The notes below the pieces were generated by a model, which worked only from the letters and a program-made list of their open reading frames with translations, was not told the origin of the DNA and made no database searches. A program made the position numbers and the translations under genes. This document shows positions 1 to 19,232 of a stretch of 21,172 nt of DNA, piece after piece (within the stretch, counting starts at the first letter, position 1; each line of letters begins with the position of its first letter). This DNA is from a virus: positions 1 to 21,172 of the IMG/VR virus record IMGVR_UViG_3300033148_008314, one strand, 5' to 3'.

Positions 1-2
1 AG

Positions 3-1109
3 TGGCTACGCAACCTGATCGCCGAGAGATTGATTGCCGACGGCGACGTAGACGAACGGAGTATCAAAGATGTCAAAGCCAAAGACCTTCGAGGATACAC
101 GCAGTGTCACTTCTTCGCCGGGATCGGAGGGTGGAGCTACGCGCTCCGACTCGCGGGGTGGCCGGATGACAAGCCGGTTTGGTCGGGGAGTCCACCTTGT
201 CAGCCGTTTTCAGCCGCCGGCAAAGGCAAAGGCAAAGAAGACCCGCGCCACCTCTGGCCCGAATTCTTCAGACTCATCTCTAAGTGTCGACCTCAACAAA
301 TTTTTGGAGAACAGGTTGCGGCAAAGGCTGGACGTGAGTGGCTCTCTGGAGTACGTGCTGACTTGGAAGATGTGGGATATGCTGTCGGGGCCGCAGATCT
401 GTGCGCTGCGAGCGCGGGGGAGAAAGGATACCAGGCGAGTTGGGGCTGGGAAGACGAAGAGACGGGAGAAGTGTCTTGGGATGAGACTGTTCCAATCATC
501 GTCGGAGCACCTCATATCAGGCAGCGGCTGTTCTGGGTGGCGGACTCCGAATGCAACGGATGGAGATCACGGCGGTCCGAATGCAAGGGACAGCACCGGC
601 GGACTTCATCTGAGCGGACAGGCCGCAGTGGCGGGCTGGCCAACACCAACAACTCCAAGCGGAGGACAGACGCCCCCGCCGGGGACCAGCTCAACAGGGA
701 AGACTCCCGACGGACGAAAGGTTCAAGTAACGCTGAAGGATGTCGCGGCGCTGGCAGGATGGCCGACGCCGATAGCCAACGACGACAACAAGAGTCCAGA
801 GGCCCATTTGGCAATGAGGAAGCGAATGGGGGAACGGGACGGCAGCGGGGCCAACAGGACGTCAATCACCAGTCTACAGGTAATGGCAAAGACGGTGGGT
901 GGGCCAGCTTCGATGTCCTCCCATGCAGAGACGGAAAGTCTCGGCGTGTTGAATCCGGAACATTCCCGCTGGCTCATGGGGTTCCCGCCAGAGTGGGCAA
1001 GCTGCGCGCCTACGGCAATGCCATCGTCCCGCAAGTCGCAGCTACGTTCATAGAAGCATACATCGAAGCAGTGATCTCCTACCGAGACTCGGGCTCAATC
1101 TCCACCTGA
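3..1109 (+). CDS. dcm: DNA (cytosine-5-)-methyltransferase, 5' partial
   Basis: Transfers a methyl group from SAM to C5 of cytosine in DNA, probably protecting phage DNA from host restriction. The frame is open from the first bases of the window, and the residues before the first possible start (TTG at 30) still read like protein, so the true start lies upstream. Counting from that TTG, motif I FAGIGG is at residues 29-34, the catalytic GSPPCQPFS loop has its cysteine at 57, GEQVA (motif VI) is near 93, IRQR (motif VIII) is at 163-166 and the C-terminal GKLRAYGNAIVPQ block is near 325. The middle third (about residues 170-290) is low-complexity, rich in Arg, Gly, Asn and Asp, and contains ADSE/ANTN/ADAD repeats, which is usual for this phage subfamily as I remember it. 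Oddities are an apparent 27-residue insertion before motif VIII and a second coding-like frame over almost the whole gene. Family call is secure; the recognition sequence is unknown. Confidence 0.9.
   Translation, partial: WLRNLIAERLIADGDVDERSIKDVKAKDLRGYTQCHFFAGIGGWSYALRLAGWPDDKPVWSGSPPCQPFSAAGKGKGKEDPRHLWPEFFRLISKCRPQQIFGEQVAAKAGREWLSGVRADLEDVGYAVGAADLCAASAGEKGYQASWGWEDEETGEVSWDETVPIIVGAPHIRQRLFWVADSECNGWRSRRSECKGQHRRTSSERTGRSGGLANTNNSKRRTDAPAGDQLNREDSRRTKGSSNAEGCRGAGRMADADSQRRQQESRGPFGNEEANGGTGRQRGQQDVNHQSTGNGKDGGWASFDVLPCRDGKSRRVESGTFPLAHGVPARVGKLRAYGNAIVPQVAATFIEAYIEAVISYRDSGSIST
70..1053 (+). CDS. Overprinted ORF inside the methyltransferase gene (GWPTP-repeat protein)
   Basis: A 327-residue ATG-started frame lies entirely within dcm, offset by one base. 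It does not look like a random shadow. It contains a compact EYVLTWKMWDMLSGPQICALR block (about residues 94-114), three spaced (G)W(R/P)TP repeats, and a C-terminal HSRWLMGFPPEWASCAP block. I recognise all of these from memory as recurring in proteins encoded next to phage Dcm genes. The WPTP repeats are the frame-shifted reading of the ADSE/ANTN/ADAD repeats of the methyltransferase. No function is known to me. It could be a real overprinted protein, or a conserved by-product of constraint on the methyltransferase frame. No good Shine-Dalgarno precedes the ATG at 70, so expression is uncertain. Confidence 0.5.
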   Translation: MSKPKTFEDTRSVTSSPGSEGGATRSDSRGGRMTSRFGRGVHLVSRFQPPAKAKAKKTRATSGPNSSDSSLSVDLNKFLENRLRQRLDVSGSLEYVLTWKMWDMLSGPQICALRARGRKDTRRVGAGKTKRREKCLGMRLFQSSSEHLISGSGCSGWRTPNATDGDHGGPNARDSTGGLHLSGQAAVAGWPTPTTPSGGQTPPPGTSSTGKTPDGRKVQVTLKDVAALAGWPTPIANDDNKSPEAHLAMRKRMGERDGSGANRTSITSLQVMAKTVGGPASMSSHAETESLGVLNPEHSRWLMGFPPEWASCAPTAMPSSRKSQLRS

Positions 1110-1969: not shown

Positions 1970-1985
1970 ACACCTGCGGGGGTGT
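1970..1985 (+). promoter_or_regulatory. Hairpin occluding the RBS of the nuclease gene
   Basis: ACACC (1970-1974) can pair with GGTGT (1981-1985) directly before the ATG at 1987, burying the only SD-like sequence (GGGGGTG). A second small hairpin, CAACT-GGAGG-AGTTG, lies earlier in the leader. Translation of the first gene of the operon may therefore be weak or regulated. Confidence 0.35.
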
Positions 1986-1986
1986 T

Positions 1987-2766
1987 ATGACTAACGACGC
2001 GACGACCAAGAAGCCTCACGTATCCGTATCATCACTATCCAAGTATCGACTCTGCCCCAGGCAGTGGTACTACTCCTACGTCGAGAGACGGCCGCGCCAG
2101 AAGAACGATAACCTGATCATCGGGAGCGCCCTACACTCAGGGTGCGAATACAACTACCGCCAGAAGATCACCAGCGGGAATGATTGCGCAGAAGACGAAG
2201 TCATCCAGGTGGCAATCGAGAAGGTACGCGCAGAAGCCGAGAACGGCTACTCGTCGGCCAAGAGCTACACTATCAATGACATGGAAGGCGTCGTCGAAGG
2301 ACTTTGCAGGGTTCACCACGAAAAGGTCGCCCCGCACGTAATGCCCGCATTCGTTGAGTACGAATTCACAGTAGATCTCGGGGAAGACTTCCCGGTGACC
2401 CTCTACGGATTCATCGACTGTATCACGGTCGAGGATCTAATCATCGATATCAAGTCGTGGGGCAGGGCCAAGGGCCAGCGCTATGCGGATAACGATATGC
2501 AGTTAACCGCGTACGCCTTTGCGTTCCGATCCATCTTTAGGCGGATCGAATCCGGACTAAGGTTCGATGTTGTCACAAAGACCGGGTACAAGTACGCACC
2601 ACTCAGCACAACGCGCACAAACCAGGATATCAGGTGGTTTCTACTCCAACTCGAACAATTGGTCGATGGTATGCAGAGGGGGGTGGTCTTCCCTAACGAC
2701 GACCACTTCCTGTGCAGCGAGATGTATTGCGACCATTGGTCGGTGTGCAGGGGCGAGGGGGTCTGA
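1987..2766 (+). CDS. PD-(D/E)XK nuclease with Cas4/AddB-type cysteine set
   Basis: A RecB/Cas4-like nuclease of 259 residues, expected to cut or resect DNA ends during phage recombination. Visible motifs are the N-terminal SSLSKYRLCPRQWYY block, GSALH at 46-50, the metal-binding D144 (GFID), D154-I-K156 and Q172 of the QLTAYAF motif. Cys23 and Cys243, Cys248 and Cys254 form the one-plus-three pattern that holds a 4Fe-4S cluster in Cas4 and AddB. I chose ATG 1987 because the family begins a few residues before the SxSxL motif. An in-frame extension back to 1750 would run through the terminator and promoter. First gene of the replication operon; an ATPase and an ssDNA-binding-like protein follow. 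No cas1/cas2 or CRISPR array is nearby, so a role in adaptation is not supported. Confidence 0.85.
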   Translation: MTNDATTKKPHVSVSSLSKYRLCPRQWYYSYVERRPRQKNDNLIIGSALHSGCEYNYRQKITSGNDCAEDEVIQVAIEKVRAEAENGYSSAKSYTINDMEGVVEGLCRVHHEKVAPHVMPAFVEYEFTVDLGEDFPVTLYGFIDCITVEDLIIDIKSWGRAKGQRYADNDMQLTAYAFAFRSIFRRIESGLRFDVVTKTGYKYAPLSTTRTNQDIRWFLLQLEQLVDGMQRGVVFPNDDHFLCSEMYCDHWSVCRGEGV

Positions 2767-2777
2767 TCGGAAAAATA

Positions 2778-2791
2778 GCCACATAGGTGGC
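2778..2791 (+). promoter_or_regulatory. Tetraloop hairpin before the RBS of the AAA ATPase gene
   Basis: GCCAC (2778-2782), loop ATAG, GTGGC (2787-2791). It ends 3 nt before AAAGGAG (2795-2801), the SD for ATG 2809. One of a series of hairpins directly upstream of SD sequences in this window. Confidence 0.45.
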
Positions 2792-2808
2792 CAGAAAGGA
2801 GCCGCGCA

Positions 2809-3969
2809 ATGGGTAAAGTTGAGGTGGATGTGCCGGACGACGGTACGGGAGCCGTCAAGACCGAAGTGGGAAAGACGACAGGCAAGAGCATCGAGAAGAC
2901 CGAAGCGGGAGTCAGGGTGTCCTTCCCTAAGAAGAAAGCCGCCAAGAAGAGCGCCAAGAAGAAGACGAAGTCGGACAGTAAGGCTCCGGCCAGCAGCAGC
3001 GGCAAGAAGCTAATTACTAATGTCGATCTCTCCCCGTTCTCGAAGCCAGCCGAAAAGAGATCGCGGTTGAAGATCTTCATCTGGGGCGACTCAGGCGTCG
3101 GCAAGACGACGTTCATGCTCGGGTTCCCTGGCCTAGCAGTCATCGACTGCGACAACGGAACCGACCCGTTCAAGAAGAGGTTTGAGTTCGAGGTCAAAAA
3201 GACGGTCAACGTCGACGAGGCGAAGCGGATGGTCCAATGGCTCGCCACGCATGAGCACCCATACCATACGCTCGGAATCGATCCGATCACAATCATCTGG
3301 GAGTCGATGCAGAAGAAGTGGAGCGACATCTTCCTCGAGCGCAACAAGAAGGGGAAGGGCCACAAGCACGAGTTCTACGAGATGCAGGTCCGCGACTGGC
3401 AAACACTGAAGTCCGATTTCAAGTCACTGATCAGGATGCTGCTGGCGCTGGACATGAACATCGTAGTCACCGCACGCGCCAAGACCAAGTACAAGGACAA
3501 GGACAAGGGCAGCGAGTTCATGGTCCAAGACGGAGTCACCTTCGACGGTGACAAGAGCCTGCCGTACATGTTCGACACCGTGCTGAACCTCGAAGTCAAG
3601 GACGGCAAGCGCATGATCTCTTGCGCCAAGGACAGGTGGGAGATCTTCCCGACAAACAAGAGCGTCCCGCTTTCGATGAAGTACGTCGAGAAAATATGGG
3701 ACAAGATGGAGCTTGGATCTCCATCCGGGCAGATCATGTTACCTCCAGAGGAAGAGGTCGTCAGTGATCAGCAAGTATTCCACTTCGCCACTAAAGAGCA
3801 GCAGGGGAAGATTATGTCCATTGCGCGAGGATTGGAATTCACAGAGCAGCAAGTTTCGGATGCTCTTGCCGCTCGCGAAGTCACCTCGGTAGACAAGCTT
3901 TCCGAAGAGCAAGCTGAGAGCATGATCGAAAACCTCAAGAGTATCAAAGAAGCTCGTGAACAAGCCTGA
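2809..3969 (+). CDS. Sak4-like AAA ATPase (AAA_24 family)
   Basis: A RecA-fold ATPase of the type phages use in recombination, often called Sak4. It is usually found beside a single-strand DNA-binding protein, as here. Walker A is GDSGVGKT at 93-100. The Walker B-like strand HTLGID is near 153-158. The core runs to about residue 300. Two additions flank it: a Lys/Ala/Ser-rich N-terminal tail (about 40-70, including KKKAAKKSAKKKTK) resembling histone H1-type tails and probably disordered, and a helical C-terminal domain (about 320-386). The tail may bind DNA, but that is inference. ATG 2809 has a good SD. The predicted role is loading or annealing of single strands with the DUF669-like partner just downstream. 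Confidence 0.75.
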   Translation: MGKVEVDVPDDGTGAVKTEVGKTTGKSIEKTEAGVRVSFPKKKAAKKSAKKKTKSDSKAPASSSGKKLITNVDLSPFSKPAEKRSRLKIFIWGDSGVGKTTFMLGFPGLAVIDCDNGTDPFKKRFEFEVKKTVNVDEAKRMVQWLATHEHPYHTLGIDPITIIWESMQKKWSDIFLERNKKGKGHKHEFYEMQVRDWQTLKSDFKSLIRMLLALDMNIVVTARAKTKYKDKDKGSEFMVQDGVTFDGDKSLPYMFDTVLNLEVKDGKRMISCAKDRWEIFPTNKSVPLSMKYVEKIWDKMELGSPSGQIMLPPEEEVVSDQQVFHFATKEQQGKIMSIARGLEFTEQQVSDALAAREVTSVDKLSEEQAESMIENLKSIKEAREQA

Positions 3970-3970
3970 C

Positions 3971-4008
3971 GATAGTGCGGGCTATCTGTGTGGGCATGAT
4001 GACCCACA
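3971..4008 (+). promoter_or_regulatory. Tandem hairpins before the RBS of the DUF669-like gene
   Basis: GATAG (3971-3975)/CTATC (3982-3986) is followed by TGTGGG (3989-3994)/CCCACA (4003-4008). The second hairpin ends 3 nt before AAAGGAG (4012-4018), the SD of ATG 4026. Confidence 0.45.
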
Positions 4009-4025
4009 ACGAAAGGAGTCTCACA

Positions 4026-4511
4026 ATGCCGAAGATGGATGTCAGGAAGGTAGACGAGGCATCGGATTACACCCCGATACCTGAGGGGACGTATCCGTGC
4101 GAGTGCGACGATGTCAAGGAAAAGACCACCCGGTCCGGCGACGAGATGTGGTCGGTAAGGTGGTCGGTGATCTCTGGCGAGTATGAAGGCCGATCGTTCT
4201 TCGACAACCTGGTCTTCTCTGAGGTTGCGCTTCCTCGCGTGAAGCTCGTCGCGAAGCGTGTGGCCGGGCTGGATGTCGATAGCGGACCAATCGACTTCGA
4301 GCCGGATCACCTGGTCGGGAAGCGAGCGATGATCGAAGTAGAGATCAACGAGTACACCGACGACAACGGGAAGCTCAAGCGCAACAACAAGCCTACGTTC
4401 GGGGGGTATGACTATTTCGACGAAGGCGATGATGGAGGCGCTCCAGCCGACGACAAGCCGATTCTCGGGGCCGCCAACACCACTGAAGGGAAGGTCAAGC
4501 CTCCTTTCTAG
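4026..4511 (+). CDS. DUF669-like protein, probable ssDNA-binding accessory
   Basis: 161 residues. The layout matches the phage DUF669 family, which is found beside Sak4-type ATPases and thought to bind single-stranded DNA: an N-terminal DYTPIPEGTYPCECDDVKEK segment, a beta-rich core (MWSVRWSVISGEYEGRSFFDNLVF), a VGKRAMIEVEINEYTDDNG strand pair, and an acidic, glycine- and proline-rich tail (about 125-161) like those that recruit partners in SSB proteins. ATG 4026 follows a strong SD (AAAGGAG). An upstream in-frame GTG at 3975 would include the tandem hairpins and was rejected. It probably coats single strands produced by the nuclease and handled by the Sak4-like ATPase. The family call rests on pattern memory. 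Confidence 0.65.
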   Translation: MPKMDVRKVDEASDYTPIPEGTYPCECDDVKEKTTRSGDEMWSVRWSVISGEYEGRSFFDNLVFSEVALPRVKLVAKRVAGLDVDSGPIDFEPDHLVGKRAMIEVEINEYTDDNGKLKRNNKPTFGGYDYFDEGDDGGAPADDKPILGAANTTEGKVKPPF

Positions 4512-4541
4512 GTGTAGCATATCTCAAGCGTGATCTACAGT

Positions 4542-4557
4542 GCCAGCCTAAGCTGGC
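4542..4557 (+). promoter_or_regulatory. Tetraloop hairpin before the RBS of recD2
   Basis: GCCAGC (4542-4547), loop CTAA, GCTGGC (4552-4557), immediately followed by GGAAGGA, the SD of ATG 4571. A weaker TGTAG/CTACA pairing lies just upstream, so this too may be a tandem pair. Confidence 0.45.
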
Positions 4558-4570
4558 GGAAGGATTTTAG

Positions 4571-6721
4571 ATGGATACCATCCGAGGGAAAATCAGGCGC
4601 GTAATCTTCAGCAAGAATGGATTTCTCATCGCAAAGCTCGACGATGGAGCGATCATACTGGGGGAGATGACCTCCCCCAGCATGGTTATTGAATACGAGT
4701 TTCACGGCGAATGGAAGCACCACGAAACATACGGGGCTCAACTCAAATTCGAAAGCTACGAAGGCAAGTCGCCGAAAGACAGCGACGCTGTCATCGCTTA
4801 CATACGAGAGAACTGCAAGTGGGTCGGAGATTCGACCGCGAAAGCCATAGCAAAAACCTATGGCGAAGATGCGCTGGAGGTCCTCAAGAATGACCCGGAG
4901 CGCGTCACAAAGGAAATCAGGGGCCTTACGCTTGATCGGGCAACTGAGGTATCAGAAAAGCTGAAATCCATCGCAGACCAAGAAGCGCTCTACGTCGAAC
5001 TCAAGAAGCTGTTCCTTGATGTCCCGGTGAGGAAGGCCGCCATCAAGAAGATGGTGGATATGTGGGGAACAGATGCTCCGGCGCAGATCAGAAAAGACCC
5101 GTACATCCTCCCAGACGAGATCAACGGGATTGGCTTCGCAACCGCAGACATCATCGGCCAAAAGCTAGGTGTCAAACAGAATGACGAACGCAGGGTGCGC
5201 GGCGGCATTCTCCATGTGATGAAAGAAGCATCCGGCACGCAGGGGCATACATGCCTCCCGGTATCAGAAGTAGTCAAGAGGTCCGTTGATCTAATTTCGT
5301 GCAAGGGAGATACTGTCGCAAAGATGATCCACGAATGCGAACAGCGGGGGCAGCTCGTTTCGGAAAGCAAGAACCTCTACCTCTATAAGATGCACAGGGA
5401 CGAGGTCTACGTGGTCGGGAAGCTCAAGAGCCTTACATCTCAAGAGACGAGCTGCATCAAACCTGAACTTGAGGGGCTGGCCGACGACCAGGCGGAGGCG
5501 GTCAAGACCTGCCTCAAGCATAACGTTTCGATCCTCACCGGCCCGGCGGGGTCGGGCAAGTCGTTCGCGATCAAACGAGTAATAGACTCGCTAGCGGCCT
5601 CCGGGGGAACAACCAAGCTGGCGGCCCCTACCGGGAAAGCTGCAAAGCGAATGTTCGAGCACACGAACTACGAAGCACAGACTATCCATATGCTGTTAGG
5701 GCCCGAGCCCAGAACAAGCAAGAGCGGCAAATTGTCGTTCAAGTTTCTCCACGACGAAGGAAACCCCTTAGATATTGACACACTCGTCCTTGACGAAGTC
5801 AGTATGCTGGACCTGCCGCTGTTCGCGTCCATGCTTCGAGCCCTCCCGGAGAGCGTACGCCTCATAATGATAGGAGATGTCAACCAGCTGCCGGCCGTAG
5901 GTGCAGGCAACGTCCTCCGGGACATGATCACGTCCGGGGCAATACCAGTGTCTAGTCTAACAACGATCAAGCGCCAAAACCCTGGACTGTTGTTGAGGAA
6001 TGCGCACGCCGTGAAAGACGGGCTCAACATCGATGTCGAGAACGGCGAGCCAGGCGGTGATTTCTACTTCTTGAGTATGGGGCAGAAGTCTGACATCGTG
6101 AAAGAGATCACCGACCTTGTATCAAAGCGGCTACCTGGCACATACGGGTATGACAGCATGCGTGACATCCAAGTTATCTCCCCATTCCGCGAGAAGACGA
6201 TTCTGTCGTGCAAGTCGCTGAACACTGAGCTTCAAAAAGTACTTAACCCGAGGGGCGCCGCCATTGGCAAGACGATCTTCAGAAAGGGCGACAAGGTCAT
6301 CCAGAAGCGGAATGACTATTCTCTGGGCATCGTCAACGGGGATATCGGGATTGTTAAGGGCTCGGAAAAGGAAAGCAGCACGCACAAGATCATTGTGGCA
6401 TTCACCAACCCGGACAAAATCGTGTCGATACCGATGTATGAGAATAACCTACAGCTTGCGTATGCGTTGACCATCCATAGCGTCCAGGGCAGCGAGTGGC
6501 CGGCGGTCGTCTGCCCGATCCACACTTCGTTCGGGTCGTTGATCATGCAGAGGCCGTTGGTGTACACGGCGATCACAAGGGCGAAGAGTCTTTGTGTGGT
6601 CGTCGGCCAGCTCAAGGCGATGCGAGCAGCGATCAAGCGTAACAGGCCTATCAATAGGTACACAACTCTGAAGGAGAGGCTCACCAAAGAATTCCAGACG
6701 TCTGTGGCTGTACTAAACTAG
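4571..6721 (+). CDS. recD2: RecD2-type SF1B DNA helicase
   Basis: An ATP-driven 5'-3' DNA helicase of 716 residues, the usual RecD2 length. It has an N-terminal beta-barrel (1-65) and helix-hairpin-helix-type repeats (about 70-200, including GIGFATADIIGQKLG), then the two-domain helicase core. Core motifs are GPAGSGKS (Walker A, 324-331), APTGKAAKR (Ia, 352-360), LDEVSMLD (Walker B, 407-414), GDVNQLPAVGAGNVL (III, 435-449), the HSVQGSEW motif (about 634) and YTAITRAK (VI, about 663). All key residues appear intact. It sits mid-operon after the DUF669-like gene. In phages such helicases serve replication restart or recombination rather than an RecBCD complex; no RecB or RecC is present. The start has a hairpin and SD directly in front of it. 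Confidence 0.93.
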   Translation: MDTIRGKIRRVIFSKNGFLIAKLDDGAIILGEMTSPSMVIEYEFHGEWKHHETYGAQLKFESYEGKSPKDSDAVIAYIRENCKWVGDSTAKAIAKTYGEDALEVLKNDPERVTKEIRGLTLDRATEVSEKLKSIADQEALYVELKKLFLDVPVRKAAIKKMVDMWGTDAPAQIRKDPYILPDEINGIGFATADIIGQKLGVKQNDERRVRGGILHVMKEASGTQGHTCLPVSEVVKRSVDLISCKGDTVAKMIHECEQRGQLVSESKNLYLYKMHRDEVYVVGKLKSLTSQETSCIKPELEGLADDQAEAVKTCLKHNVSILTGPAGSGKSFAIKRVIDSLAASGGTTKLAAPTGKAAKRMFEHTNYEAQTIHMLLGPEPRTSKSGKLSFKFLHDEGNPLDIDTLVLDEVSMLDLPLFASMLRALPESVRLIMIGDVNQLPAVGAGNVLRDMITSGAIPVSSLTTIKRQNPGLLLRNAHAVKDGLNIDVENGEPGGDFYFLSMGQKSDIVKEITDLVSKRLPGTYGYDSMRDIQVISPFREKTILSCKSLNTELQKVLNPRGAAIGKTIFRKGDKVIQKRNDYSLGIVNGDIGIVKGSEKESSTHKIIVAFTNPDKIVSIPMYENNLQLAYALTIHSVQGSEWPAVVCPIHTSFGSLIMQRPLVYTAITRAKSLCVVVGQLKAMRAAIKRNRPINRYTTLKERLTKEFQTSVAVLN

Positions 6722-6753
6722 AGGAGCGGGCAGGCTAACGGGAGGCCGCGCCG

Positions 6754-7221
6754 ATGATCATTGTTGTCGATACGCAAGAACAGACGCCGTACACGTTCGA
6801 ATACTATGGCGTGACCACTGAGAGCAGGAAGCTCAAGAGTGGCGACTACTCTGTCGCCGGATACGAAGATCAGGTTTCCGTTGAACGCAAAACACACTCT
6901 GATGCATTCGGGTCACTCGGGAAGGGGCGTGCTCGGTTTAAGCGCGAGATGATTCGTCTGAGCGAGTATAGATACGCCGCCATTATCATCGAATGTAATC
7001 TATCCTCATTCTTGGAACGACCGCCTTGCTCGTCGATGAACCCAATCGCCGCGATCAATTCTCTGATCTCATTTGATATCAAGTACGGTGTTAGAGCTAT
7101 CTTCGCCGGGTCGAGAGGGCTGGCTGAGGCGTATACATTCCGCCTGCTGCAGAAGTTCTACAGCTACTGCGTAGAAATCGAAGCTGGTAAAACCATAGAT
7201 AGGCCGAGGAATGTCAAATAG
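6754..7221 (+). CDS. ERCC4-domain (XPF-like) nuclease
   Basis: 155 residues, a free-standing ERCC4 nuclease domain. Metal-binding residues are visible: D6 and E9 in VDTQEQ, D31 in SGDYSV, and the signature E44-R45-K46-x3-D50 (VERKTHSD). Such enzymes cut 3' flaps and branched DNA. They are typical of archaea and eukaryotes (XPF/Mus81) but also occur alone in phages. There is no helix-hairpin-helix tail, so DNA targeting must come from a partner. GGGAGG lies about 9 nt before the ATG. The 3' end overlaps the next gene, the primase-helicase, by 11 nt, implying translational coupling and probably cooperation at the replication fork. Confidence 0.85.
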   Translation: MIIVVDTQEQTPYTFEYYGVTTESRKLKSGDYSVAGYEDQVSVERKTHSDAFGSLGKGRARFKREMIRLSEYRYAAIIIECNLSSFLERPPCSSMNPIAAINSLISFDIKYGVRAIFAGSRGLAEAYTFRLLQKFYSYCVEIEAGKTIDRPRNVK

Positions 7222-10200
7222 CTGGCAGGAATATAAGGCCGAGATAGAGCAACGCCTAAAGGTCGAACCGATGCGCGTGTATGGCAACATAGGAAAATCG
7301 GAAAAAGCCGAATCCAACGAAGATGGTTGGATGATGGGGCTCTGTCCATTCCACCGCGATACCAGCCCTTCGTTTGCGTTCAACGTTCAGCACTTGGGAT
7401 GGGCATGTTTCGCCGGCTGCGGCAAAGGCGACGTCTGGGACTTCATCACGATCACCAGCGGCCGAACATTCAAAGAAGCGATCACTGACATGGGCGACGA
7501 GCTCGGGATCAAGCGCCCCGGCAGTGCGGACTTCGTGAATAGACCACCGATCAAAAGGGATGCAATCGAAGCTCACGAGAAAGAGCTCTGGGAGAGCAAG
7601 AAAGCGTCTCTACTGGATTATCTTCGCAATGACCGCGGGCTCGCTGACGAGACGATCAAGCTGCGCAGGATTGGATGGTCTTCCAAAAAGAAGCGATACG
7701 TCATACCGGTCTTCGACGAGAAGGGCGTGTGCTGGAATCTCCGGCTCTACAGCCCGACTGCCAAAGCAAAGATGATCAACCACCGGACCAACACTATTCG
7801 GTATGGCAAACCGGCCAGATTGTACGGTCTTGAGTTGCTCGCCAAAGACAAGAGTGATTTTGCGATGATCACCGAGGGCGAGTTTGATTCCATGCTCGCC
7901 GTTCAGTTTGGGATTATGGCGGTCAGCGGCACGCATGGATGCGGAACGTTCAACGAGAAATGGGTGGGCCATTTCAAGGGCAAGAAGGTCGCCCTCTTCT
8001 ACGATCAGGATGAAGAAGGCAAGCGGGCAGTCAATGAAATCGTGTTGCCGCATTTCAAGTCGGCAGTGAAGAGTGGCCAGGTCAAGTCGGTTAGCATTAC
8101 CTCTCCTCCTCTCGCCGGCACGAAAGACGACAAGGACATTACCGACTGGGTCGTGAAGCGTGGTTGTACGCCAGCTCCATTCAAGAAGATGGTCCACGAC
8201 TCCCCGGTTCACGTCTTCGAAGACGACCCGCAGACTACTCAGGATCAATACGAGCTGCTCGAAAAGGCTGCTAACAATCCTCCGATCCCGATCAGAAGCT
8301 TTGCGGAGATCGACCGCACCGACCTGATCGGCAAGCGCGTCTCCTGTGAGATCACGGTATGCAGCGAATCCAAGCAGTCCTACTTCGCCGCCGAAGAGTT
8401 TCGAGTAAGGTCCTGTATACTCAAGTCAGCCGGAAGATGTGCACTGTGCTCTGGCCCGATACGAATACCACACGGTGCTCGAGATTTCATCGGGTCATGC
8501 ATGTCGAGCGATGCCCAGGTGTCCGCGATGCTCGCACGGAACTACTGCTCGAAGGGACAGCGACCTCAGATTGAGGTCACGTCCAAGAGGACCGTCCGTG
8601 AGTTTCTCGCGCACCAGAAGGTAAGCCGCGTCAGCAACGTCCAAGTGAATATCCAGCACGAGCAGGAAGATGACGAAGCCATCATCGAGGCCGTCGAGAA
8701 AGCGGCCGACGACAAGAACCCCCCGGAGCGCAAGAAGCGTAAGCGCGGGCGCCCTAAAGCCAAGGACGATATGTACGACGAGAAGAACAATCAATTAGTC
8801 GAGAGAAACGTCTACTACCTGTCGGATAAGTCGATCACTCCCGGCAACTACTACGCTGAGGGCTGGGTGACAGACCGGCCGCAGGACCAGGGATCCACCT
8901 TCCTGATAGACTATTTGGAGCCCCAGGAGGACGATTATGAGTCGTTCGACAAGAACGATCATATTGACGATCTAAAGGCCATAGACGCATTTTCTATGGA
9001 ACAGATAGTCGAGGACATCAGGAACAATGTTACTCGCGTCTACGAGCGCGACGAGCTCCTGCTGGCCACCCTGATGGCGTACCTAAGCCCACGCTTCTTT
9101 AATTTCAACGGGGAGCGCCTCCGGGGGTGGATGTGTATGGCAATTATCGGAGATGTCGGGACCGCCAAGACCAAGACGTTTTCAACGTTGGCACAGTGGA
9201 TCGACGTGGGTGACGTATTCAGCAGCCTGACTGGTTCAAGAACAGGACTGGCGTATTCTATCCAGCAGGCCGTTTCGAAGTCGTGGCACGCCCGGATAGG
9301 CCGGTACCCGGCAAACTCTCGAAAGCTGCTCATGGTCGACGAAATACAGTTGATGCGTCATGAGGAACTGAAGCCGATATCCAAGGCTATGGACGAAGGT
9401 GTTCTGAAAATCGATCGGGTTGTCGAGAAGACCTACGAATCTCAAACTCGTGTGATCTTCATCGGAAACCCGAAGCAGCCGCAGATGGATAACTACCAGC
9501 TGGGCTGCCAAGCTCTCAAGCAGGTGTTTCCGATCATGATCATCAGGCGTCTGGATCTGGTGGTCCTGGCTAACAGGCACGACGTTACAGGCATCAGTAG
9601 TATTCTCCACCAGACGCACGAGAAGCCCAAGAAGCAGCTTATCACCGCCGACATGCTTCGTTCGCTCGTCTATCTCATGTGGAAGATACGGCCCGAGCAA
9701 ATTGTGTTCACTGATGACGCTGTGCAGGAGTGCATGAAGCAGGCCGACGTCCTCAGCGAAAAGTTCGGCAGCGCATCGCCAGTGCCCCTGGTCGCAAACT
9801 ACGAGATCGATAAGAAGCTCGCCCGGCTGGCTATACCAATAGCCGCGCTCGACGGGTCGTTTGATGATGAGTTCGAAACCTTAACCGTAGAGGCAAAGCA
9901 CGTAGGAATGACCTCAACCACGCTGGATATGATCTACAGCGCGGAAAACTTCCAGCTGGACACTTACTCCGAGCAAATGAAGATCCGGGAGTCGGTAGAA
10001 GACTATGACAAAGTCGTTCAGATGTTCGACGACAGTATCAAAAACGAGTGCCATGGCAGGAACGGTAGCAGCTCCCAGTTGAAGCGCATGTTGTTCTCTA
10101 TCTGGTCTCAGAATATTGAACAGGACGGTGTCAACGGCCAGCAGGCATCTATCTCGCGCAACGACATTGTCGATTCTACCGGCCTGAGCAAGAAGTTTGT

Positions 10201-10432
10201 GTCGAACAAGATGCAGATGTTGAAGTCGACAAACCTAATCTCATCGTCTCGGCACGGATACGAGAAGACGCCGAAGTTCGCACGGCTGTTCCGGCGCCTG
10301 CTGAGGGATCGCCCTGGGTTCTTCGACGAGGTCAAGAGTTACTCCGTTGTCTCCGGGGAGGATAGTTTCGCGCCGAGGGATGATGACGGCCACCTAGATT
10401 TTACAGGTGAATCGGGCGCGGATGACGACTAA
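7211..10432 (+). CDS. Toprim primase fused to an MCM-like helicase
   Basis: A 1073-residue multidomain replication protein. The N-terminus is bacterial DnaG/phage type: a CHC2 zinc finger (C45, H48, C66, C70) and a Toprim catalytic core with EGEFDS (222-227) and DQDEEG (265-270). Residues 365-450 look like an MCM-style OB region with a Cys cluster (C402, C410, C413, C430, C446). A basic linker (about 503-520) follows. The C-terminal AAA+ core reads as MCM: Walker A GDVGTAKT (647-654), the helix-2-type TGSRTGLAYS segment (674-683), Walker B LLMVDE (706-711), sensor 1 GNP (752-754), the RRLDL arginine-finger region (779-783) and a winged helix (about 975-1040). The product should make primers and unwind the fork. 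The start overlaps the ERCC4 gene. MCM versus another AAA+ clade is judged from motifs only. Confidence 0.85.
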   Translation: MSNSWQEYKAEIEQRLKVEPMRVYGNIGKSEKAESNEDGWMMGLCPFHRDTSPSFAFNVQHLGWACFAGCGKGDVWDFITITSGRTFKEAITDMGDELGIKRPGSADFVNRPPIKRDAIEAHEKELWESKKASLLDYLRNDRGLADETIKLRRIGWSSKKKRYVIPVFDEKGVCWNLRLYSPTAKAKMINHRTNTIRYGKPARLYGLELLAKDKSDFAMITEGEFDSMLAVQFGIMAVSGTHGCGTFNEKWVGHFKGKKVALFYDQDEEGKRAVNEIVLPHFKSAVKSGQVKSVSITSPPLAGTKDDKDITDWVVKRGCTPAPFKKMVHDSPVHVFEDDPQTTQDQYELLEKAANNPPIPIRSFAEIDRTDLIGKRVSCEITVCSESKQSYFAAEEFRVRSCILKSAGRCALCSGPIRIPHGARDFIGSCMSSDAQVSAMLARNYCSKGQRPQIEVTSKRTVREFLAHQKVSRVSNVQVNIQHEQEDDEAIIEAVEKAADDKNPPERKKRKRGRPKAKDDMYDEKNNQLVERNVYYLSDKSITPGNYYAEGWVTDRPQDQGSTFLIDYLEPQEDDYESFDKNDHIDDLKAIDAFSMEQIVEDIRNNVTRVYERDELLLATLMAYLSPRFFNFNGERLRGWMCMAIIGDVGTAKTKTFSTLAQWIDVGDVFSSLTGSRTGLAYSIQQAVSKSWHARIGRYPANSRKLLMVDEIQLMRHEELKPISKAMDEGVLKIDRVVEKTYESQTRVIFIGNPKQPQMDNYQLGCQALKQVFPIMIIRRLDLVVLANRHDVTGISSILHQTHEKPKKQLITADMLRSLVYLMWKIRPEQIVFTDDAVQECMKQADVLSEKFGSASPVPLVANYEIDKKLARLAIPIAALDGSFDDEFETLTVEAKHVGMTSTTLDMIYSAENFQLDTYSEQMKIRESVEDYDKVVQMFDDSIKNECHGRNGSSSQLKRMLFSIWSQNIEQDGVNGQQASISRNDIVDSTGLSKKFVSNKMQMLKSTNLISSSRHGYEKTPKFARLFRRLLRDRPGFFDEVKSYSVVSGEDSFAPRDDDGHLDFTGESGADDD

Positions 10433-14567: not shown

Positions 14568-14777
14568 ATGGCGAGCAAGAAGTCATTGTATAAGATTTCC
14601 AATGACTGGGGAGTCAGACATGTTGTTGCCACGAGTCTCGAAAAAGCAATAGAGAAGTGGCAGTCGAGTATTATTGTTTTGCGAAAGAAGGACTGTAGAA
14701 ATCCGATCACGAGAAAAGAGATCGGCGAGCCAGACAGCACTGAAATTGTCTGCTACTCTGATCAACTTGTTGTGTAG
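14568..14777 (+). CDS. Small KKSLY-type protein, paralogue 1 (69 aa)
   Basis: Unknown function. It begins MASKKSLYKIS, continues to VVATSLEKAIEKW, and is clearly related to the protein at 20861-21049 (MAAKKSLYRVT...VMATSCAKAAEKW). The shared half, about 32 residues, reads as two short strands and a helix: a compact beta-beta-alpha unit that turns up in small phage proteins thought to handle protein or nucleic acid contacts. The C-terminal halves diverge, except that both end with ..E(I/D)V... strands. GGGGGA lies before the ATG at suitable distance. The gene sits between the zinc-ribbon protein and the nucleotidyltransferase-kinase fusion. Confidence 0.7.
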   Translation: MASKKSLYKISNDWGVRHVVATSLEKAIEKWQSSIIVLRKKDCRNPITRKEIGEPDSTEIVCYSDQLVV

Positions 14778-14790
14778 GGGAAAGCCAGGA

Positions 14791-15882
14791 ATGAAACACA
14801 TCCTCGTCAGCGGCTGCTACGATATCCTCCACGCTGGGCACATCCAGTTCTTTAGAGACGCGAAGGATCGTGACGACTATTTGACGGTGTGCGTTGCTTC
14901 TGACCGAGTAATACGGGAGTACAAGGGCCGGGAACCAGCGATGCCTGAGGAACACAGAGCCGCGGTGATCAGAGCAATCAGAGGGGTCGACGATGTCTGC
15001 ATCGGTGACGATGATCCTCCTCACCTGAATTTCATGTCGTGTCTCATCAAGAGGAACATCGACCAACTCGTATCAACAGAAGATGACCAGAACACTGAAG
15101 AAAAAGTGGAGCTGTGTATTTCTCTTGGGTTGTCTTTTCGTCAACCACCAAAAAGACCACCGCAGTGCGGCCCAATCTCAACCACAACAGCCAGGCGCCG
15201 GGCCGCACTCCCGTCGCACGTCCCGCTGCGCGTTGACTTCGCCGGCGGATGGCTCGACGTTCCGAAGTTCTCGGACCCGGAGGGCTACATCGTCAACTGC
15301 GCGATCACGCCGACGGTGTCAATGGATCACTGGCCGTATCATATCCGCGCCGGGCTGGGCGGGTCGGCCGCGAGATCTCTTCTCATGGGAGACGACCCCG
15401 TAGACTCAGAGCTCGAGATCGCTGGCTGGCAGGACGCCGCGAGCATTCAGCAGACCGGGCTGTGTGTGTGGCGATCTGGGCCGAAGCCGAAGCTGGAGAT
15501 GCAGGTCAACGCTGACTGGTTGAACGGGAAGCTGGCTCTTCTCTGGACCGGCAAGGAGCATGACACGAAGGGGCTGCTTGATCGGGAGAGAAATTATGGG
15601 CAGATCGCGTATGCTTCTACTGCGGCAGCCGGAGCCGTCAGGGATAAGAATTTGTTCATTCTTGGCATGGGAATAAGAATGTCATATGATCAACAGCGAG
15701 ATGAAGGTATGGACGACATACCATTGTCTTACAGCCCGGGAGGAAAGCTGCTCGGTTTCAAGTACGCTGGAAGTGGCCATGGGGGATACGTCATCTGCTT
15801 GTTTGGAGACCAGGTTGACAGAGACTGGTTCGTGGAAAACAACAAGGAAGCCATTGCCGTCGAACCATACTCGAAGTGGTAG
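14791..15882 (+). CDS. Cytidylyltransferase-like domain fused to a GHMP sugar kinase
   Basis: A 363-residue two-domain enzyme. Residues 1-115 form a nucleotidyltransferase of the RfaE2/glycerol-3-phosphate cytidylyltransferase type: SGCYDILHAGH (7-17) with the HxGH signature (14-17), then ASDRVIREYKGREP. After a linker with STTTARR, residues 145-363 are a GHMP kinase: PLRVDFAGGWLDVP (145-158, like D-glycero-D-manno-heptose-7-phosphate kinase and fucokinase), GLGGSAAR phosphate loop (188-195) and AGSGHGGYV (326-334). Together the domains could phosphorylate a sugar and activate it as an NDP-sugar, perhaps for modifying DNA, surface glycans or a host metabolite; the substrate is unknown. I recall the same fusion in bacterial genomes. 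ATG 14791 precedes the first conserved strand; an upstream extension from 14674 would run through the previous gene. Confidence 0.8.
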   Translation: MKHILVSGCYDILHAGHIQFFRDAKDRDDYLTVCVASDRVIREYKGREPAMPEEHRAAVIRAIRGVDDVCIGDDDPPHLNFMSCLIKRNIDQLVSTEDDQNTEEKVELCISLGLSFRQPPKRPPQCGPISTTTARRRAALPSHVPLRVDFAGGWLDVPKFSDPEGYIVNCAITPTVSMDHWPYHIRAGLGGSAARSLLMGDDPVDSELEIAGWQDAASIQQTGLCVWRSGPKPKLEMQVNADWLNGKLALLWTGKEHDTKGLLDRERNYGQIAYASTAAAGAVRDKNLFILGMGIRMSYDQQRDEGMDDIPLSYSPGGKLLGFKYAGSGHGGYVICLFGDQVDRDWFVENNKEAIAVEPYSKW

Positions 15883-18039: not shown

Positions 18040-18354
18040 ATGGGTGATATGAGGGCGTTGGGAGCCGACATAAAGTGGCAGACAGATCGGATCGCTCGAG
18101 GAATAATAGTCCTTGGTGGTCGTTATGTTGCGAACCAGATAAACAGCAAGCAGCTGCTTCAGGGCATGCGCAATATGACTGCGAGGGTCGCGTCACAGGT
18201 CGACAGGCTCGATGTCACTGTGCTACAGGGCCATGTCGAGGACATGAGTAAGTATCACCAGGACGGAGAGCTCAGGTTGGGGGGCCACACTGAGGATATG
18301 AAGAATTACCGGGCCAATGATCCTGATGACACAGACGCGGATATTGATTTCTGA
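18040..18354 (+). CDS. Hypothetical protein, 104 aa
   Basis: Not recognised. ATG 18040 lies 7 nt after the previous stop; the SD is weak (AGGGTAGAG). Residues 1-75 form amphipathic helices with regularly spaced hydrophobics (IARGIIVLGGRYVANQI...LLQGMRNMTARVASQVDRLDV), giving a possible coiled coil or helical bundle. The C-terminus is acidic (NDPDDTDADIDF). The final A of the TGA stop is the first base of the integrase ATG, so the pair is tightly coupled. Confidence 0.65.
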   Translation: MGDMRALGADIKWQTDRIARGIIVLGGRYVANQINSKQLLQGMRNMTARVASQVDRLDVTVLQGHVEDMSKYHQDGELRLGGHTEDMKNYRANDPDDTDADIDF

Positions 18355-19232
18355 TGATCGGTAAGGATGAGATAGAGCGGTTCATCGCTGAGGGTATGTA
18401 TGCTGATACTACTCAGGTCTCATACCGCAAGACCTTGATGAGATTTACCTCTATCGTGAAGATCCCGTCAAAGGGTTGGGAGTCCCGCGCTGTAGCGTTC
18501 CGCGATGCAAAAGAATGCGGAACGTATGGCAAGGCACTGTATATCGCGACCGCCAGGTCATTTCTGAACTGGTGCCTGTCTGAGGACCTGATCCAGAAAA
18601 ATCCCCTCAAGAAGGTCCGCATCCGCCTTCCAACCAAGAGCAACCGGTCATCGCTCACCGACAAAGAAGTGAAGTCGCTCCTCGGATCAATGGACAGTGA
18701 GGCCAAGCGCTTGAAGCGTACTAAGAGGATCGCGGTCCTGCGTGACAAGGCAGCAATAGTATTTATGCTTCACACAGCGATGCGCGTCGGCGGGGTGATC
18801 AGCCTGGACATCGAGGACTTCAAGCACAGTGAGGGCGTGGCGATTGCCAGTTACAGGAACAAGGGGGGAATCGGGAAGGACTCATCAGCACATGTGACGA
18901 AGAAGCCGCTTGATGCCGTGAAGCGGTATCTCGAGTCTACGGGACGAACTTGGAAGTCAACGGGCCCGTTGTTTTGTTCTCAGTCTGGGAAGAGAACCAG
19001 CTATCACGGCTTAACAAAGTCGATTATGAAGAGGCTGAAGGCCTCAGGTATCCGGGAGGAGGTCTCTCCGCACTGGATGCGCCATACAGCTGCGACAAAA
19101 GCCTATCGTGCTGGCGCGGACATCAAGGCAGTGCAGAGGCTCCTCGATCACAAGGATTTGAACACGACTGACAGGTATGTCCATACGCTGGACGATGCCA
19201 AGCATTCCGCCGAAGGCAAAATCAGTTACTAA
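18354..19232 (+). CDS. int: Tyrosine recombinase (phage integrase)
   Basis: 292 residues. The N-terminal SAM-like core-binding domain covers about 1-95 and the catalytic domain about 98-292. All active-site residues are present: R144 in TAMRVGG, K175 in the GGIGK loop, H240 and R243 in SPHWMRHTAA, H266 in LLDHKDLNTT and the nucleophile Y275 in DRYVH. It should catalyse site-specific integration or excision of the element, or resolve multimers as XerC/D do. It lacks a clear arm-binding N-terminal domain, so a simple Xer-like mode is possible. ATG 18354 shares a base with the upstream stop (TGATG). Last gene of the repressor operon. Tandem repeats at 19308-19354 just downstream could be its binding sites. 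Confidence 0.92.
   Translation: MIGKDEIERFIAEGMYADTTQVSYRKTLMRFTSIVKIPSKGWESRAVAFRDAKECGTYGKALYIATARSFLNWCLSEDLIQKNPLKKVRIRLPTKSNRSSLTDKEVKSLLGSMDSEAKRLKRTKRIAVLRDKAAIVFMLHTAMRVGGVISLDIEDFKHSEGVAIASYRNKGGIGKDSSAHVTKKPLDAVKRYLESTGRTWKSTGPLFCSQSGKRTSYHGLTKSIMKRLKASGIREEVSPHWMRHTAATKAYRAGADIKAVQRLLDHKDLNTTDRYVHTLDDAKHSAEGKISY

Follow-up and report, generated by a model that had tools for sequence, protein, structure and literature searches.

A phage C5-cytosine methyltransferase probably encoded as two polypeptides by one stretch of DNA, with the module array and motif IX in a nested gene

Known methyltransferase plans and the phage locus

The C5-cytosine methyltransferases (C5-MTases) of the Bacillus phages SPR, phi3T and rho11 are multispecific single polypeptides with exchangeable tandem target-recognition modules between motifs VIII and IX. 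In M.EcoHK31I, the smaller gene is said to lie inside the larger one in another frame, reportedly a finding of Lee, Kam and Shaw in 1995. According to the introduction of one paper (PMC3404938), the larger subunit of M.EcoHK31I carries motifs I-VIII, motif X and the predicted TRD and the smaller subunit carries motif IX, and in M.AquI the break falls inside the variable region, the smaller subunit carrying IX and X.

We analysed a window of 21,172 nucleotides (IMG/VR record IMGVR_UViG_3300033148_008314, positions 1 to 21,172), in which a locus at 3..1109 very probably (about 0.87) encodes one C5-cytosine methyltransferase as two polypeptides from one DNA stretch, the nested subunit comprising a multi-module array and motif IX. 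The features are as follows (L numbers denote related loci):

3..1109, + strand: frame 0 ORF (alpha), 368 codons within the window, catalytic polypeptide of a C5-cytosine methyltransferase, bearing motifs I-VIII and X
58..72, + strand: Shine-Dalgarno GGAG (58-61) and ATG (70-72) of the +1 gene, inside the frame-0 codons CGG AGT ATC AAA GAT GTC
70..1053, + strand: nested gene (beta), in +1 with respect to the Dcm frame, starting at ATG, 327 aa, module array and motif IX
111..131, + strand: motif I FFAGIGG, frame 0
192..212, + strand: catalytic motif IV PPCQPFS, frame 0
303..317, + strand: motif VI variant FGEQV, frame 0, located by alignment
504..539, + strand: motif VIII GAPHIRQRLFWV, frame 0
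535..633, + strand: module 1 GWRTPNATDGDHGGPNARDSTGGLHLSGQAAVA, +1 frame
634..756, + strand: module 2 GWPTPTTPSGGQTPPPGTSSTGKTPDGRKVQVTLKDVAALA, +1 frame; similar modules by eye in L005, L021 and L350
757..891, + strand: module 3 GWPTPIANDDNKSPEAHLAMRKRMGERDGSGANRTSITSLQVMAKT, +1 frame; this module also opens the array of L081
949..1005, + strand: motif-IX-like segment LNPEHSRWLMGFPPEWASC, +1 frame only
1002..1028, + strand: motif X LRAYGNAIV, frame 0 only, directly next to motif IX in the +1 frame

The frame 0 ORF is open at the 5' end of the window, and its start codon probably lies outside. It matches PF00145 (E 2.5e-12) and phrog_363 (E 1e-71) and contains motifs I, IV (PCQ), VI and VIII, motif VI reading EQV where most C5-MTases have ENV. 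An earlier note, made from the sequence alone, had credited this frame with all Dcm motifs; this does not hold, because motif IX is absent from frame 0 and the IX-like segment lies in +1. Frame 0 also lacks a recognisable TRD and has a low-complexity stretch at the position expected for it, and the succession of TRD region, motif IX and motif X is found over the two frames combined but not in frame 0 alone. The +1 product has three copies of GW(R/P)TP at aa 156, 189 and 230 (nt 535, 634 and 757), each heading a module, followed by the motif-IX-like LNPEHSRWLMGFPPEW. The remaining details given for its 327 residues, EYVLTWKMWDM and HSRWLMGFPPEWASCAP, are likewise present, and the repeats do read ADSE/ANTN/ADAD in frame 0 and WRTP/WPTP/WPTP in +1. 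The profile search that the note had proposed matched the +1 product to phrog_1008 over residues 10-326 (E 1.6e-26); no Pfam family was matched and the NCBIfam search was empty. Both phrog_363 and phrog_1008 are labelled DNA methyltransferase, but their entries do not mention nested halves of one enzyme.

As in M.EcoHK31I (YGGCCR), the larger polypeptide of the window carries I-VIII and X and the smaller one IX; unlike in that enzyme, where the TRD is predicted in the larger subunit, the nested subunit holds the TRD-position modules, 1-7 to an array. Because this placement departs from that prediction, we do not file the window enzyme as a member of the M.EcoHK31I type, and the likeness is one of layout. 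M.AquI shares the split in the variable region, and its smaller part with IX and X recurs in the relatives L118, L151 and Upyo, whereas in the window type the catalytic frame keeps motif X and the overlap of the two genes is nearly complete. The tandem exchangeable modules between VIII and IX recall the SPR, phi3T and rho11 enzymes, a likeness of layout, but in the window they occupy a second frame, each module opening with W/LPTP; a single polypeptide is found only in fused mycobacteriophage relatives, the window using two frames. The two-polypeptide plan of C5-MTases is thus already known, and what seems new is the nested, putatively target-recognising multi-module subunit and the handover of selection from frame to frame. 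Among the papers covered, a literature search returned no description of nested phage C5-MTase genes, which is weak evidence for absence.

Conservation, start site and selection in the overlapping frames

Across 149 unique homologous loci the +1 frame contains 18 stops vs 576 expected from synonymous-codon permutation, and the +2 frame of the same loci is without depletion (2236 observed vs 1912 expected), as is the +1 frame of 20 fused mycobacteriophage methyltransferases, for which a nested gene is not expected and which served as negative control (188 vs 198). For the window gene alone, +1 is stop-free in 0.9% of the permutations (P = 0.009), and the statistical strength therefore lies in the homologues. 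A first set of 89 loci gave +1 frames open across nearly the entire overlap in almost all cases, with stops near the ends, and +2 frames usually with 10-28 stops. Where frame 0 has ended (L118 and L151), +1 is still open with modules, IX and X; in L086, which has an intein in its PCQ motif, numerous stops interrupt +1 as far as codon 408, after which it stays open until codon 665, so that the extein downstream of the intein has no +1 stop before the latter codon. As far as sequence comparison reaches, this confirms the +1 frame as a conserved nested gene rather than a product of chance; the earlier note was right in taking both frames as real, its ORF at 70-1053 being found exactly as described and +1 stops being uncommon within the overlap of homologous loci.

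Several insertions were observed in these genes. Apparent inteins lie at the catalytic PCQ motif (VHNCQPF junction) in L086 (1374-3425) and L330 (2302 onward), and HNH homing endonuclease-like insertions in the catalytic region of L084 (2124-3575, in the +1 frame) and, after the +1 stop and just before motif X, in L081. In the window itself, an insertion of ~28 codons at about 414-500, between the LCAA and VGAPHIRQ segments, is open in both frames and absent from >90% of aligned non-redundant homologues.

The nested gene also has its own selected start, with a Shine-Dalgarno sequence written into frame-0 codons. GGAG is separated from the +1 ATG by 8 bases, in a region that reads VDERSIEDV in frame 0 of the homologues. 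The Asp codon creating the ATG is GAT in 111 and GAC in 3 of 120 homologues, vs a gene-wide GAT:GAC of 1079:1505 (Fisher 8e-37 for the excess at the start site); GG closes the Arg codon in 94/120 and Ser is encoded by AGY in 98/118, by which AGGAGT or CGGAGT is built. A selected Shine-Dalgarno sequence and ATG favour separate initiation over frameshifting.

Rates were obtained by classifying single-base differences in 900 pairs from the 149 loci (the pairs are not independent, and intervals come from sequence resampling); they describe the homologues rather than the window's own gene, are based on a small number of doubly synonymous sites, and amount to f0 NS/SS 0.17 (0.13-0.28) and f1 SN/SS 0.59 (0.45-0.96) over the catalytic part, f1 SN/SS 0.225 (0.17-0.32) and f0 NS/SS 0.81 (0.61-1.20) over the module region, and 0.22 for f1 and 0.32 for f0 at the IX/X junction (LNP-to-end). 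Frame-0 codon-position differences in the module region (0.174/0.035/0.064) have the pattern of a gene read in +1, and a smaller locus set with another filter gave a concordant picture. In these comparisons constraint changes frame along the gene, from frame 0 over the catalytic part to +1 over the modules and to both at the IX/X junction. The +1 frame is only weakly constrained across the catalytic part (f1 SN/SS 0.59); in the module region frame 0 is the secondary, weakly constrained reading, near neutral in the homologues where the TRD-position modules sit in +1. Synonymous variation, a point on which the earlier note wished its proposal to be judged, is thus constrained by the +1 frame.

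Motif IX and the modules in nested, split and fused relatives

Relative to the catalytic motif, motif IX is in the +1 frame in 84/85, 80/80, 28/32 and 6/6 loci of four sets, and in 73/74 resolvable loci from bacterial genomes. L105 and L107, apparent exceptions in this count, are spurious PCQ matches. In the loci read in detail, motifs I-VIII, the modules, IX and X each occur once over the two frames, IX and X being in either frame: IX and X are both in +1 in the Gordonia phage Upyo, L118 and L151; L103 has the modules alone in +1 and IX and X in frame 0; and in L104 the +1 frame holds one module and IX.

Other phages carry the whole enzyme in one frame. In gp65 of Mycobacterium phage DLane and gp4 of Gordonia phage Fitzgerald, a single protein unites I-VIII, LPTP modules, IX (EWMMGWPAGWV-type) and X (GNGVCP), and an in-frame fused ORF was found in 20/27 fetched loci, whereas L261, L264 and L267 are split and have IX and X in +1. 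The fused proteins match both families, DLane gp65 (L251) hitting phrog_363 (5e-78) and phrog_1008 (1e-72). A second-half profile built from other phage loci finds DLane at residues 247-459 (4e-34) and also the +1 protein of the window (3e-20); the databases behind these two E-values were very small. In Phanphagia, close to DLane, the gene is split and the second part starts inside the first, in +1. By comparison with these relatives, the +1 protein supplies motif IX and most likely target recognition to one and the same enzyme, a half that other phages carry joined in frame to the catalytic one. The main proposal of the earlier note, an old, conserved second gene, is supported: stop counts and constraint both bear it out. 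The gene is not a de novo overprinted novelty, since relatives occur outside the overlap, in frame within complete enzymes and as non-nested split genes.

Closely related mycobacteriophages carry one enzyme in different forms, fused in L245 (DLane) and split side by side or split overlapping among L246 (Ovechkin) and L248 (Phanphagia). In L120 (2317-3078) the catalytic part I-VIII, one module and IX are fused in one frame and motif X is lost, probably by a small deletion; L120 is one of four related prophages and was compared with L111-L113. Frame disruptions in L137 and L350, and a frame-0 stop in L285 with +1 still open, are read as decay or sequence error, L285 and L350 being copies in bacterial genomes.

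The model of the fused relative L276 has a good catalytic part and a module region with pLDDT mostly below 40; it matches M.HhaI (Foldseek 2e-12; VIA Z 22, model 1..367 on HhaI 12..325), and a search with the fused-set profile picks up both HhaI and HaeIII. The window +1 protein alone gave an AF2 model (pLDDT 56, pTM 0.25) too poor for a fold search, and the +1 profile had no match among solved structures up to E 10. A profile of the IX-X region of relatives hits the plant DRM-type methyltransferase 4onj, beside DRM2 entries, at E 0.0045, with LEPDEVEMLLGFP...SLGNSF in the aligned segment. By position, by this weak DRM-type match (E 0.0045) and by a coarse structural alignment, we call the +1 segment motif-IX-like.

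The 269 arrays hold 1-7 modules each, and in all 22 module clusters with at least 5 members (22/22; the single-linkage clustering is approximate) the modules occur at several ordinal positions and behind several predecessors, so that the tandem and exchangeable organisation of the multispecific phage C5-MTases is found here as well. Window module 1, which contains GGPN, is found again in phages of Gordonia and Arthrobacter and in other phage loci, L103, L118 and L152 included. In L118 and L152 it is kept in +1 although frame 0 has stops across the module, and the +1 reading is therefore the retained one. From their place between VIII and IX, the modules are probably TRDs. We consider it about as likely as not that the nested gene serves as a cassette of exchangeable specificities, in which every W/LPTP module recognises a DNA sequence of its own and phages gain, lose and swap modules over a near-neutral frame 0 that need only stay open as filler; if so, one gene evolves in two frames, the selective burden passing at motif VIII and being shared at IX/X.

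The proposed enzyme, its alternatives and its distribution

What the alignments establish is the conservation of the nested gene, its own start site, frame-specific selection, a complementary partition of motifs and a fused form in relatives. On this basis, frame 0 would be translated into a catalytic subunit with I-VIII and X, and the nested gene, from its Shine-Dalgarno sequence and ATG hidden in frame-0 codons, into a second subunit with three W(R/P)TP modules at the usual TRD position and then motif IX. The alpha and beta subunits would most likely associate and rebuild the complete enzyme, activity perhaps being found only in combination. The rebuilt enzyme most likely methylates the DNA of the phage itself, with the modules selecting the target sequences and several modules possibly giving several specificities, and this methylation most likely protects phage DNA from host restriction.

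An open +1 frame could also be a mere shadow of Dcm conservation and high GC, with DNA-level motifs repeating in both frames. The GC content of 60%, the P of 0.009 for the window alone, which is not astronomically small, and the possibility that some +1 conservation over the catalytic region (f1 SN/SS 0.59) is shadow would agree with this, but +1 stops are depleted where those of the +2 frame and of the fused relatives are not, +1 is the more constrained frame in the modules, and modules persist where frame 0 carries stops (L118, L152). At the start site, moreover, GAT outnumbers GAC by 111 to 3. With selection and start-site results already contradicting it, we regard a shadow ORF as hardly credible. 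That the +1 product is an independent overprinted accessory protein, for example an anti-restriction protein merely overlapping the methyltransferase, is very unlikely: a few phage annotations list it as a gene of its own (K1ind2, 'Mte8-like') and it has no Pfam or solved-structure match, but the same modules and IX occur in frame inside complete C5-MTases, frame 0 is without exactly the motif that +1 supplies, and the IX-X profile matches DRM-type methyltransferases. Of the two roles that the earlier note had offered for the second protein, assistance to the methyltransferase is in essence retained, and nothing points to a separate counter-defence protein.

A programmed frameshift from frame 0 to +1 after motif VIII would yield one polypeptide with no separately initiated subunit. 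Along the DNA, where VIII in frame 0 is followed by modules and IX in +1 and then by X in frame 0, the motifs keep the order of a canonical enzyme, and in L120 nature has joined I-VIII to one module and IX; against this stand the strongly selected Shine-Dalgarno sequence and ATG of the +1 gene and the need for two shifts in the window type, because a single shift loses motif X. We therefore think such a frameshift very improbable and prefer two separately initiated subunits of one enzyme.

The nested arrangement is widespread and mostly unannotated. Known phage records were matched by frame 0 in 317 cases and by +1 in 196, and both frames are annotated in a few, e.g., K1ind2 and PhiXhv-18, epsilon15 having only frame 0; a search for 'Mte8' in the literature found no functional account. 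Bacterial genomes contributed 80 loci, mainly from Proteobacteria and also from Planctomycetota, Verrucomicrobia, Nitrospirae and further groups (taxa as named in the record titles), and a plasmid search returned 11 records. Since most records seen annotate only one frame, annotation often omits the putative target-recognition half of this large family of phage methyltransferases, and the half that is annotated may pass for a complete enzyme. Few long overlaps on one strand have products that can both be given a function. The coexistence of fused, split and nested forms here provides a natural series of how a gene part moves into another frame, which could also show whether module arrays predict phage methylation patterns.

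In the window, a replication/recombination module adjoins the methyltransferase gene (1981-10432 and 18354-19232), with a PD-(D/E)XK nuclease, an AAA_24 ATPase, DUF669, a RecD2-like helicase, an ERCC4 nuclease and a primase-helicase, and with a phage integrase near the end. A further phage gene at 14674-15882 contains a cytidylyltransferase-like domain (PF01467, E 1.6e-12).
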